A stretch of DNA of 35,451 nucleotides, from positions 1 to 35,451 of the forward strand of contig JACMJS010000152.1 in NCBI GenBank assembly GCA_014380515.1. The letters run 5' to 3'. Positions 9,484-14,441 of this stretch are shown piece after piece. The notes under the pieces were generated by a model. The model made no database searches. It saw only the letters and a list, made by a program, of their open reading frames with translations, and was not told the origin of the DNA. Source of the DNA: Chlorobiales bacterium (GTDB taxonomy: Bacteria; Bacteroidota; Chlorobiia; Chlorobiales; JACMJS01). The translations under genes were made by a program, and so were the position numbers. Within the stretch, counting starts at the first letter, position 1, and each line of letters begins with the position of its first letter.

Positions 9484-11817
9484 ATGCCCGCGCCCGGTTT
9501 TCTGCTTCGCAAAGATGATGCGCCGGATCGGGCACAAGCTTTACTGCTTGCAATCGGGAGAAAAATAATTGCATTTCTGACTTGTGTTGCAATTTGCCTC
9601 GGTCTCGCACTCTTTCCGCATACATCGCTTGCGCAAACTTCCGATACCTTGAGAACCGCCGATACCTTGCGCACCGCACCCTCCGGCACTTCACCCGATT
9701 CCACGCCCGATACCGCCAAAGCCGCCCGCTTGCCGCAAACCATCGACCGCCTGCTCGACCGCTCTGTTGAATCCGGCGGCAACGACGAACTCTTGGAACA
9801 ACTCGCACTCTTGCGCAAACAAAAACTCAACCTCAACGCCGCAAGCGTCGCCGAGCTTACCGTCATTCCGTTCTTGACCATCATCGATGCCAAACGCATC
9901 GTCGACTACCGCGCGCGGCAAGGCCGGTTTCAAAGCCTCGATGAACTGGCGGGCGTGCTCGATGAAGATGCTGCAGGTTTGATCGCCGAGTTTCTTTACA
10001 TCGGCGTCCCGCGTCCTGACCGCGATCCCGCGCAGCCCGCGTTTATCAACGATTTGCGGCAAGGTGTTTTGCAGCAGCAAATTCAAATCGAATACATCGG
10101 ACGTTTTTTTACCGAAAGTCCCGCACGCTTCGGCTTTGCGACCGGCAGCAAGAAAACCGTTGTACGTGATTCGACTGGCCGCGCGATTGACACGATTAAA
10201 AGCATCGCCTATCTCGGCACGCCGCAACGCTTCTACAACCGCCTGCAAGTCCGCGTCTCCGAAAATTTTTTGATCTCTGCGCTGACCGATAAAGACATCG
10301 GCGAAGAATCCATCACCGACTTTGCGTCCCTGAGTTTTCAGGCGCGAGACATTTACAACCTCAAAACGTTGGTGGTGGGCGATTTTAATTTGTCGTTCGG
10401 ACAGGGCTTAGCGATGACGTCCGCCCGCGCGATTTCGAAAAGTCCCGACGCGGTGGTTTCCGCGAAACTCTCGAACCGGAATCTGCGCGCCTACACCTCG
10501 ACGACCGAACAAAACTTTTTTCGCGGCGCGGCGGCGGAACTTGGCATTCCAACTCCGCTCGGCACCATTGGCCTGACGCTGTTTTACTCCGATAATTTAT
10601 TCGATGCGTCGGATAGCGACACCGCATTCAGCAGCATTTCATATTCGGGATTGCACCGCACCGAAACCGAACTCGGTAACAAACGCAACATCGGCGAAAC
10701 GCTCGGCGGCGGATACGTGGAACTCAACCGTTCCGGCTTCGGAAATTACATTCACGTCGGCGTGCTCGGCTACGGGGCTGCATACAGCAAGGTGTTTCAG
10801 CCGGACGACCAACTTTACAACCGCTTCCGCTTTACCGGCGACCGTGTGAGCCTCGCCGCCATCGATGCCGACATCGTGATTGAAAAATTCAACGTGTTCG
10901 GCGAAGCGGCCTACTCTACCGGCGGGGCAGGCGCGACGGGCGAAGCGAACAAGGCAAGCATCGCGGCGATCATCGGTGTGCAAACGGAACTCGCCAAAGG
11001 CACGCGCGCGGTCGCGTTGTTTCGAAACTATCCGAAAGATTATTACTCGCCGCGAGCAAGCGCGTTTGCCGAGCGCGGTATTGATGCGAAGAATGAAACC
11101 GGATTTTATTTGGGCTTGCAAACCGCGCTGACGAAAAAACTCACCGTACGCGCCTACTACGATCTCTTCCGGTTTCCGTTCGTCAGTTTTACGACAGTGC
11201 TGCCGTCATCGGGCGATGATTTGCTGCTGCAACTTTCCTATAAACTCACGCCGCAAATTTTTTTGGAAGGTACGCTCCAATTGAAAAACATTGAGCAATC
11301 ACTCACGCAAATCACCACGGATGCCAGCCGGTTGGAGACGGAGTTTCGCGCCGCCGTCCCGACGAAAACGTTTCGAACGCGGCTGGATTTCATTTACCAA
11401 CCGACGGAAAAACTTGCCTTCAAAACCCGCGGCGAACGCAAGCAAGTGGACAAAACTTTTTTGACGGGTGTGGAAGGGGAATTCGGTTGGCTGATCTATC
11501 AGGATGTTGATCTGGAGTTGGTTCGAAACCGGTTGCATCTTGATGGCCGCATCGCCGTTTTCGAGACCGATACGTTCGACAGCGCGATCTATGCATATGA
11601 AGACGACTTACCGCTCGTCTCCAGCATTCCGGCATTCTTCGGCAAAGGCCGCCGCGTCTACCTCAATGCCCGATACCGTCTCACCGATGCCGTTGAACTT
11701 GCCCTGCGCTACGCGAATACTTTTAAAGACGGCATCACCAGTTCCGGCAGCGGCAACGACGCCTTTCTCACTAACGCCCCGAGCCTGTTCAGTCTCGCCC
11801 TCCGCGCCCGTTTCTAA
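9484..11817 (+). CDS. Outer-membrane beta-barrel protein with N-terminal helix-hairpin-helix (ComEA-like) domain
   Basis: 777 residues. A signal peptide ends near residue 50 (LALFPHTSLAQT). Residues about 115-170 form a helix-hairpin-helix pair typical of ComEA-like proteins (LNLNAASVAELTVIPFL, then DAKRIVDYRARQGRFQSLDEL). The remaining 600 residues alternate aromatic and polar residues and end in LRARF, a C-terminal phenylalanine signature of outer-membrane barrels. Such HHH-plus-barrel proteins occur across Bacteroidota and relatives with no assigned function; DNA binding or uptake at the surface is a guess from the ComEA-like part. A short duplication, SDTLRTADTLRTA, follows the signal peptide. 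The stop codon overlaps that of the convergent tsaC/sua5 gene. Confidence 0.85.
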   Translation: MPAPGFLLRKDDAPDRAQALLLAIGRKIIAFLTCVAICLGLALFPHTSLAQTSDTLRTADTLRTAPSGTSPDSTPDTAKAARLPQTIDRLLDRSVESGGNDELLEQLALLRKQKLNLNAASVAELTVIPFLTIIDAKRIVDYRARQGRFQSLDELAGVLDEDAAGLIAEFLYIGVPRPDRDPAQPAFINDLRQGVLQQQIQIEYIGRFFTESPARFGFATGSKKTVVRDSTGRAIDTIKSIAYLGTPQRFYNRLQVRVSENFLISALTDKDIGEESITDFASLSFQARDIYNLKTLVVGDFNLSFGQGLAMTSARAISKSPDAVVSAKLSNRNLRAYTSTTEQNFFRGAAAELGIPTPLGTIGLTLFYSDNLFDASDSDTAFSSISYSGLHRTETELGNKRNIGETLGGGYVELNRSGFGNYIHVGVLGYGAAYSKVFQPDDQLYNRFRFTGDRVSLAAIDADIVIEKFNVFGEAAYSTGGAGATGEANKASIAAIIGVQTELAKGTRAVALFRNYPKDYYSPRASAFAERGIDAKNETGFYLGLQTALTKKLTVRAYYDLFRFPFVSFTTVLPSSGDDLLLQLSYKLTPQIFLEGTLQLKNIEQSLTQITTDASRLETEFRAAVPTKTFRTRLDFIYQPTEKLAFKTRGERKQVDKTFLTGVEGEFGWLIYQDVDLELVRNRLHLDGRIAVFETDTFDSAIYAYEDDLPLVSSIPAFFGKGRRVYLNARYRLTDAVELALRYANTFKDGITSSGSGNDAFLTNAPSLFSLALRARF

Positions 11818-12788
11818 TTCGGGGATTCACTTTGCCCCACCGCCTTACGAAGCCGGTTCATCAACGCGAGGCCAAGCCCCTCTTCACCCACCGCTTGACA
11901 ATAAATCACTTTTGCACCGAGACGATCCGCCTCGCGAAAAAACTCGAAGAGCGAGGCGGCATAGTCTTCTAACGACCGGCAAATTTTTTTCAACTTTAGC
12001 GATGTATCGAAAATTTTTTCGAGACCGATATATGCTGCATCTGCGGCGGCATCACCGGGGAACGGCGGTTCGATAATGATGACGCGGGCTTCAGGAGCGT
12101 AGTGCCGGTATTTCATACCCGGGCTTGGCGGTGGCTTGGCGGCGTCGCTCCCTTTTGTACCGGCGGAAAAAAGTTTGATGGACGGCACCACCGCCTGAAG
12201 TTGCTCCAGTGTAACCGCGCCCGGACGCAGCAGCACCGGGGTCTTGCCCGTGCAATCGACGACTGTTGATTCCAATCCAATCTCCGTCGCCGCGCCTTTG
12301 AGAATACAGGCGATCCGTCCGTCCAAATCTTCTTTGACCGCTTGCCATGAGGTCGGGCTGGGTCTGCCGGAAAGATTGGCCGAAGGCGCCGCGACCGGCA
12401 CGCCGCACGCCGCCAGAAACTGTTGTGCCAGTTCATGTTTCGGCATCCGTACGCCGACGGTCTGAAGGCCGCCCGTTGCGAGGAGCGGCACGTACTTGCT
12501 CTTCGGCATCACAAGCGTGAGCGGCGCGGGCCAGAACGCCTCGATAAATTTTGTTGCAAATTCCGGCACGGAACTTACAAGCAAATCCAGATAGGAAAGG
12601 TGTGAGATGTGAACGATGAGGGGATTGTCGGGCGGACGCTGTTTGGCGACGAAGATTTTCTGAAGGGCGGATTCATCAAAAACATCCGCGCCGAGACCAT
12701 AGACGGTCTCCGTCGGGAAGGCGACCGGCTCGCCTCTGAGTAAAAACTGTGCGGCGATCTGCGGCGAGGGCGTGAGTTTGGTTTTCAT
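11814..12788 (-). CDS. sua5: L-threonylcarbamoyladenylate synthase, Sua5 type
   Basis: 324 residues with both the TsaC catalytic domain and the C-terminal Sua5 domain. It makes threonylcarbamoyl-AMP from threonine, bicarbonate and ATP, the first step of t6A tRNA modification, in the cytoplasm. Motifs include AFPTETVYGLGADV, the KQRPPDNPL loop, HELAQQF, APSANLSGRPSPT, a VLLRPGAV stretch, and the Sua5-specific SPGMKYRHYAP that opens the second domain at about residue 225. It converges on the barrel gene with stop codons overlapping (TAA on plus at 11815-11817, TAG on minus at 11814-11816). Upstream lies the BMC locus on the same strand, separated by 95 bp. Confidence 0.95.
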   Translation of the reverse strand: MKTKLTPSPQIAAQFLLRGEPVAFPTETVYGLGADVFDESALQKIFVAKQRPPDNPLIVHISHLSYLDLLVSSVPEFATKFIEAFWPAPLTLVMPKSKYVPLLATGGLQTVGVRMPKHELAQQFLAACGVPVAAPSANLSGRPSPTSWQAVKEDLDGRIACILKGAATEIGLESTVVDCTGKTPVLLRPGAVTLEQLQAVVPSIKLFSAGTKGSDAAKPPPSPGMKYRHYAPEARVIIIEPPFPGDAAADAAYIGLEKIFDTSLKLKKICRSLEDYAASLFEFFREADRLGAKVIYCQAVGEEGLGLALMNRLRKAVGQSESPN

Positions 12789-13435: not shown

Positions 13436-13443
13436 GCCGGTCG

Positions 13444-14085
13444 TTACTTGCTGCCTTTGGAAATGTTCGCAATTTCGGTGGCCAGTTTCGGGGCTTCCGA
13501 CACCGCCGATTGCAAATTCTCTTTAGCTTTGCCGACCGCATCGACCACGCCGCCCGCATCCAGCGGTGAGAAATCTTCTTGCGGACGCAATCCGCCCAAC
13601 TGTGAAAGCAACTCGCTTGCCCGCGACTGATCTTTCGTTAACGAAGCGGAGAGTTCCGCCAAAACGGTTTTGAAGTCCATCATCTTCGCAGCTTTGTCTT
13701 TGGCCGCAGTTGAGGCGGCTTTGGCGGAGTTGGTGGCGAAATCGGCGGGCTTCGCACCGTATTTGCCGACGAGGAATTTCGTCTGTTGCATCCGTCCGTT
13801 GATGCTGGCTGATTCGCTGAAGATGTTATCGTACTTCGCGCTGCCGACGGTTTTATACTTGACATTTTCGCCGACGCCGTCGAAATCCGCGACGCCTTCA
13901 TAGACGCTCATCACGGGAAATAGTTTGCCGAGCTTCAACGAGACTTCTTCGAACTTGGCGCGGGGCTGGTTGCTGACGGGCGGTGCGGCGGGCAACCCGA
14001 ACTGCGCGGATGCAACCTTGGCATTGAAAAGTTCTGCACTGAGAAGTGCAAGCGTGAGAACGGCGAGGAAGATTGACCTTTTCAT
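13444..14085 (-). CDS. Exported protein of unknown function encoded between two BMC shell genes
   Basis: 213 residues from the ATG at 14085, which gives a clear signal peptide (MKRSIFLAVLTLALLSAELF, cleavage probable after VASA at residue 27). The mature part is mostly helical and rich in Ala, Lys and Ser, with a beta-like stretch near residues 55-85 (GVADFDGVGENVKYKTVG), then long predicted helices such as KAASTAAKDKAAKMM and LTKDQSRASELLSQLGGL. No cysteine is present and no family was recognised. It lies in the same transcription direction between two shell genes, 74 bp after the first and 8 bp before the second. An exported product within a cytoplasmic-shell locus is odd; an alternative is that the hydrophobic N-terminus is a membrane or shell anchor. 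Function is not assigned. Confidence 0.78.
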   Translation of the reverse strand: MKRSIFLAVLTLALLSAELFNAKVASAQFGLPAAPPVSNQPRAKFEEVSLKLGKLFPVMSVYEGVADFDGVGENVKYKTVGSAKYDNIFSESASINGRMQQTKFLVGKYGAKPADFATNSAKAASTAAKDKAAKMMDFKTVLAELSASLTKDQSRASELLSQLGGLRPQEDFSPLDAGGVVDAVGKAKENLQSAVSEAPKLATEIANISKGSK

Positions 14086-14159
14086 ATTTGATGTGGTTCG
14101 ATTGTGGTGCGATGTGGTTTTATGTCGTGGAAAAGAAGAAATAAAAATCATTGGCAGGA

Positions 14160-14441
14160 CTACACGCTGCGCTTGGGAAGAATAAGTTCGACGTCTTGAT
14201 GCGGGCGGGGAATGACATGAACGGAAACGAGTTCCCCGACGCGCTGCGCCGCCGCCGCGCCCGCATCGGTCGATGCTTTGACTGCGCCGACGTCGCCGCG
14301 AACCATAACTGTAACATAGCCGCCGCCGATGGTTTCTTTGCCGATCAGTTCAACTTTTGCGGCTTTGACCATGGCATCGGCGGCTTCGATTGCGCCGATA
14401 AGTCCCTTGGTTTCAACCATTCCGAGTGCGTCCATTGCCAT
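14160..14441 (-). CDS. BMC-domain hexameric shell protein (PduA/EutM/CcmK-like)
   Basis: 93 residues, the standard length for a single-domain BMC-H protein. Canonical features are [20 protein letters not shown], the pore loop IGGG at residues 38-41, [20 protein letters not shown] and [20 protein letters not shown]. Such proteins assemble as hexamers in the facets of microcompartment shells, with the glycine pore passing metabolites. The start is fixed by a strong AAGGAG site 9 nt upstream, which predicts efficient translation, as expected for a major shell tile. It is the first gene of a three-gene minus-strand cluster. No shell pentamer (BMC-P), trimer (BMC-T) or cargo enzyme gene lies in the window. 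Confidence 0.95.

Follow-up and report, generated by a model that had tools for sequence, protein, structure and literature searches.

A predicted exported helical protein encoded between two microcompartment shell genes of Chlorobiales, probably without a functional link to the shell

The window, a stretch of 35,451 nucleotides from a Chlorobiales bacterium (contig JACMJS010000152.1 of assembly GCA_014380515.1; its genome is designated G000 below), carries at 13444-14085 an open reading frame of 213 residues that lies between two genes for microcompartment (BMC) shell proteins, BMC-H1 and BMC-H2, with all three on the minus strand. The features of the locus are as follows.

14160..14441, minus strand: BMC-H1, a shell hexamer protein of 93 aa, EutM-like (PF00936, E 1.5e-29; NCBIfam EutM, 136 bits versus a cut-off of 133)
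13444..14085, minus strand: predicted exported helical protein of 213 aa, signal peptide at residues 1-27 and mature protein from Q28; no Pfam or NCBIfam family above cut-off
14005..14085, minus strand: predicted Sec/SPI signal peptide of that protein, residues 1-27 (MKR...KVASA), cut before QFG (hydropathy, motif and the Q-rule of PMC5837995)
12884..13435, minus strand: BMC-H2, a shell hexamer protein of 183 aa with a GTG start, a linker and a C-terminal Rho_N-like region (PF00936, E 1.9e-25)
11814..12788, minus strand: Sua5/YrdC threonylcarbamoyl-AMP synthase (PF01300, E 1.7e-57; PF03481, E 2.2e-25)

A preliminary description had placed a protein of unknown nature between two shell genes, 8 bp from the second of them, and both statements proved accurate: each neighbor is a true BMC-domain protein, and the spacer to BMC-H2 (13436-13443) measures 8 nt, the gap on the BMC-H1 side being 74 nt. 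A Shine-Dalgarno sequence, AAGGAG, lies upstream of BMC-H1 and none is present in the 8-nt spacer before the GTG of BMC-H2. Since no minus-strand promoter- or terminator-like site was found between the three genes, a single transcript spanning them is plausible. That 13444-14085 is a real gene is indicated by an orthologue of 50% identity in the same position, between the BMC-H genes, in GBChlB (Candidatus Thermochlorobacteriaceae, G007). There is an alternative in-frame ATG upstream, at 14151, but the ATG at 14085 is the likelier start because the GBChlB protein begins near the same position and the predicted signal peptide begins there. Downstream of BMC-H2, the Sua5/YrdC gene is a conserved neighbor in most of the Chlorobiales compared. 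The Rho_N-like region of BMC-H2 occupies residues 139-179 (PF07498, E 0.0028, under the curated cut-off) and its core, GREISRA/S, is kept in the Chlorobiales copies examined; a nucleic-acid-binding or assembly role for this tail is conceivable and worth testing.

The signal peptide, which the preliminary description had called convincing, with cleavage after VASA, was assessed solely by hydropathy and motif, and that reading held. A positively charged n-region, MKR, is followed by a hydrophobic core with a maximum 15-residue Kyte-Doolittle mean of 2.31, and after residue 35 no 15-residue window exceeds 1.07. The predicted AxA-type cleavage motif is KVASA|QFG (VASA|Q28), and the A|QFGLP junction is identical in GBChlB (SVA|QFGLP) although the signal peptides themselves have diverged, so that Q at +1 of the predicted cut is common to both proteins. 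In Bacteroidetes, Q at +1 is the rule for signal-peptidase-I substrates; exceptions among the Chlorobi that obey it include Chloroherpeton thalassium (55%) and a 'Chlorobi bacterium' (63%), with values of 55-67% for the outlier Chlorobi (PMC5837995). The prediction of export is well supported, and the product would be located in the periplasm, or at least in the envelope.

Searches of Pfam, NCBIfam and PDB sequences returned nothing above cut-offs for the product, and no BMC, EutN or known cargo domain was found in it with Pfam or NCBIfam. Folding from the single sequence was unusable (pLDDT only 44), but AlphaFold on the two-sequence alignment gave a model with pLDDT 78 and pTM 0.72, in which three long helices form a bundle accompanied by two short strands, the signal peptide being of low confidence. 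Foldseek with this model against the PDB gave no match of E below 0.2 (best E 0.2). The helical predicted fold, the lack of Cys and Trp in the mature protein and the lack of an enzyme-family match together suggest that it may have a structural or adaptor function in the envelope.

Distant relatives were nevertheless detectable. Homologues in G001 and G015 were found by single sequence (one-genome E values of 7.5e-5 and 2.4e-4), and two in a second Bacteroidota class, G344 and G491, were linked by hhalign over 139 columns (97% probability, E 4e-11). Profile homology over most of its length places the product in an exported helical family with these four proteins, a family for which no named entry was found in Pfam or NCBIfam. 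The G001 and G015 homologues have a lipobox (NAGC and LSGC, respectively) at the position equivalent to the SPI site, and in G491 the domain forms the N-terminal part of a 760-aa lipoprotein. All of these homologues sit away from BMC genes: those of G001 and G015 adjoin genes for other secreted proteins, and that of G344 adjoins a caspase/Sel1 gene and a DUF900 hydrolase gene in a genome in which no BMC gene was found. As every distant homologue is a lipoprotein or another kind of exported protein and is encoded away from BMC genes, export would be a trait of the whole family rather than a special anchor for the shell. The G344 cluster (L079, 7348-14034) comprises the caspase/Sel1 gene, a second caspase-like gene and the gene for the DUF900 hydrolase, a lipoprotein. 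Other weak hits in the phylum were set aside, that in G239 matching part of a 441-aa coiled-coil protein and those in G152, G256 and G289 having E values of ~0.001-0.01 over short stretches of long frames.

How regularly does the gene accompany the shell pair? The preliminary description had proposed to look for the trio in other genomes, and had staked the functional tie on the gene lying beside BMC genes in at least some relative; it does so, narrowly, in GBChlB alone, and the rest of the comparison goes the other way. The gene stands beside the shell pair in 2/57 H1-H2 pairs, those of G000 and GBChlB. In the other 55 the BMC domains are separated by 49-237 nt, which is too short to hold it, whereas the distances are 724 and 781 nt in the pairs that enclose the gene; the BMC-H genes are directly adjacent in G001, G002, G009, G011 and G015, for example. 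Across the 245 genomes of the second Bacteroidota class, 50 have a BMC match, with the same adjacent pair of a short and a long BMC-H, one weak hit aside. The H1-H2 pair is thus old and widespread, spanning the Chlorobiales and a second class, and the exported gene is a rare insert within it. In that class (L104, L110-L112, L114) a YbbR-domain gene, where one was called, lies downstream of the pair, and genes of the menaquinone type (for a MenD-like TPP enzyme and a chorismate-binding enzyme) are close by.

A profile search for the exported family over the 98 genomes of the Chlorobiales' own class found members in five. Of the seven genomes in which a member is encoded, six have a BMC-H gene, but most of the searched Chlorobiales outside the Chlorobiaceae carry BMC-H in any case, and in the second class BMC occurs in one of two genomes with a member versus a base rate of 20%, so there is no clear link beyond ancestry. 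The set of close orthologues comprises three genomes. The third, G013, has its copy (L037) at the start of a contig, with queA and ispD after it, no BMC gene visible there and the upstream neighbor out of view; its sole BMC-H gene is on another contig and no pentamer gene was found in it. Over the common C-terminal part, orthologue identity is 57% between G007 and G013, 50% between G000 and G007 and 46% between G000 and G013, values that track the families and are consistent with vertical descent. A tree of seven concatenated proteins puts G000 outside the other family, the order of G007 and G009 being weakly supported (66, 74). The relationship to GBChlB and the pattern of families put G000 among the Chlorobiales that fall outside a large main family of closely similar species, presumably the Chlorobiaceae. 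The simplest history would be one insertion before the two families split, followed by losses or moves; an independent transfer would be a less simple alternative.

We consider it probable that the product is a vertically inherited envelope protein that is carried in the shell operon but works independently of the shell. It would be exported by the Sec route and processed by signal peptidase I ahead of Q28, a residue that probably then cyclises to pyroglutamate, and would fold outside the cytoplasm as a helical bundle, residing in the envelope as a member of a small and sparse Bacteroidota family. A copy of its gene would have entered the BMC-H1/BMC-H2 operon before the two Chlorobiales families in which it still occurs diverged, so that the protein would be transcribed with the shell genes and yet not act on the shell, which is in another compartment; we infer no functional link between the two. 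There are observations that sit less easily with this account. The trio persists in two lineages that belong to different families, a degree of persistence that a neutral passenger would not require, and the gene has retained both the operon direction and a tight 3' spacing (8 and 28 nt). Also, six of seven genomes with family members have BMC-H, though this mostly follows from their clade, and the case from orthologues comes from three genomes, with the G013 copy at a contig end.

On a rival reading the product would be a partner by co-expression, an envelope protein serving the same process as the compartment, for instance by binding its substrate in the periplasm or acting there as a scaffold, or in response to the stress that induces the shell, the operon tying their amounts together. 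In favor of this, the two genera that retain the trio belong to different families, and their proteins are 50% identical. The shared strand, the tight spacing and the lack of a Shine-Dalgarno sequence before BMC-H2 fit coupled translation, and the lack of minus-strand promoter- or terminator-like sites fits a common transcript. We nevertheless regard such a partnership as improbable, because the gene is missing from 55/57 pairs, the G013 orthologue lies elsewhere in a genome without pentamer genes, and the G344 homologue belongs to a genome without any BMC gene. The preliminary description had argued from the spacing to a functional tie; the 55 pairs, the G013 orthologue off the BMC locus and the placement of every distant homologue away from BMC genes leave that argument unsupported. 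A shell partnership thus finds no support in the comparison, and only a small chance is left to it by the survival of the trio in two genera; that the periplasmic protein, produced together with the hexamers in two Chlorobiales lineages, is a true partner of the cytoplasmic microcompartment, with shell and envelope in one process, is in our judgment quite doubtful.

Two further readings would keep the protein in the cytoplasm. If the hydrophobic N-terminus were not cleaved, it might anchor the shell to the inner membrane, as the preliminary description had offered by way of an alternative, and a single hydrophobic N-terminal stretch ahead of a soluble helical body would suit such a tether. However, the MKR n-region, the core and the conserved A|Q site predict an N-in/C-out topology and cleavage, a lipobox takes the corresponding position in the G001 and G015 homologues, and shell pairs elsewhere manage without the gene, all of which make an anchor very unlikely. 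The N-terminal helix might instead be an encapsulation peptide and the protein a cargo packed inside the shell. Cargo genes of metabolosomes are often housed within shell operons, but the N-terminus here, with its strong hydrophobicity and the SPI motif at its end, differs from the short amphipathic encapsulation peptides, of which none was found in the product, and there is no enzyme-family match; we give this reading hardly any credence.

What is at stake in the choice is that a shell partnership, if true, would connect a cytoplasmic organelle with the periplasm, and we know of no precedent for a periplasmic partner linking to such an organelle. The comparison of 57 pairs makes the link unlikely, and leaves the gene as one for an exported, uncharacterised protein whose predicted fold is usable. 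More curious is the host shell system itself, which may merit a study of its own: its BMC-H pair is conserved over two Bacteroidota classes, and in the Chlorobiales the pentamer genes lie at separate loci and the usual core enzyme is missing. The shell set of G000 consists of two BMC-H and three BMC-P genes at separate loci. Two of the BMC-P (EutN/CcmL) genes are flanked by a GAF-GAF-GGDEF gene and a gene for an RpoD-like sigma factor (L028, C394, 3076-6522), in a P1-P2 order that is syntenic in six relatives (L065-L070), and the third stands alone elsewhere (L029; L071-L076), in G000 after a phosphoglucomutase-type gene, the assignments at L028 and L029 having been made by reading the sequence. 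The shell-gene set of these Chlorobiales is, judged by gene content, complete but scattered. Three genomes of genus g5 (L036, 8681-9001; L038, 9397-9672; L039, 9177-9446) have only a single, divergent type of BMC-H and lack pentamer genes, so that one kind of hexamer gene persists there without the remaining shell. A literature search for microcompartments in Chloroherpeton gave a tetrapyrrole review as its sole text hit, and neither Chlorobi nor Bacteroidetes is mentioned in the main text of the BMC catalogue.

Among known systems, the arrangement resembles the BMC satellite loci (Axen et al., 2014, PMC4207490; Sutter et al., 2021, PMC8217296) in that H1-H2, P1-P2 and P3 lie apart and without signature enzymes adjoining, but neither in G000 nor in the Chlorobiales relatives searched did BMC-H and BMC-P turn up together at a main locus. 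From metabolosome-type BMCs the genomes that carry the neighboring shell genes differ in that the phosphotransacylase PduL (PF06130) occurs in 0/7 of them. BMC-H1, above the NCBIfam EutM cut-off, and BMC-H2 each contain one complete PF00936 domain, as in BMC-H proteins of the EutM/PduA/CsoS1 type, whereas the product encoded between them lacks a BMC domain and resembles neither shell nor cargo proteins. Its likeness is to the exported family of G001, G015, G344 and G491. Although members in G001, G015 and G491 have a lipobox where it has an SPI site, and although all four are encoded away from BMC genes, with that of G491 lying inside a larger protein, they share with it an export signal at the N-terminus and, after it, a strand of the type Y-x-x-(V/I)-G, an F-x-x-(S/A)-A motif where a helix begins and a helical body that contains an L-x-P motif.
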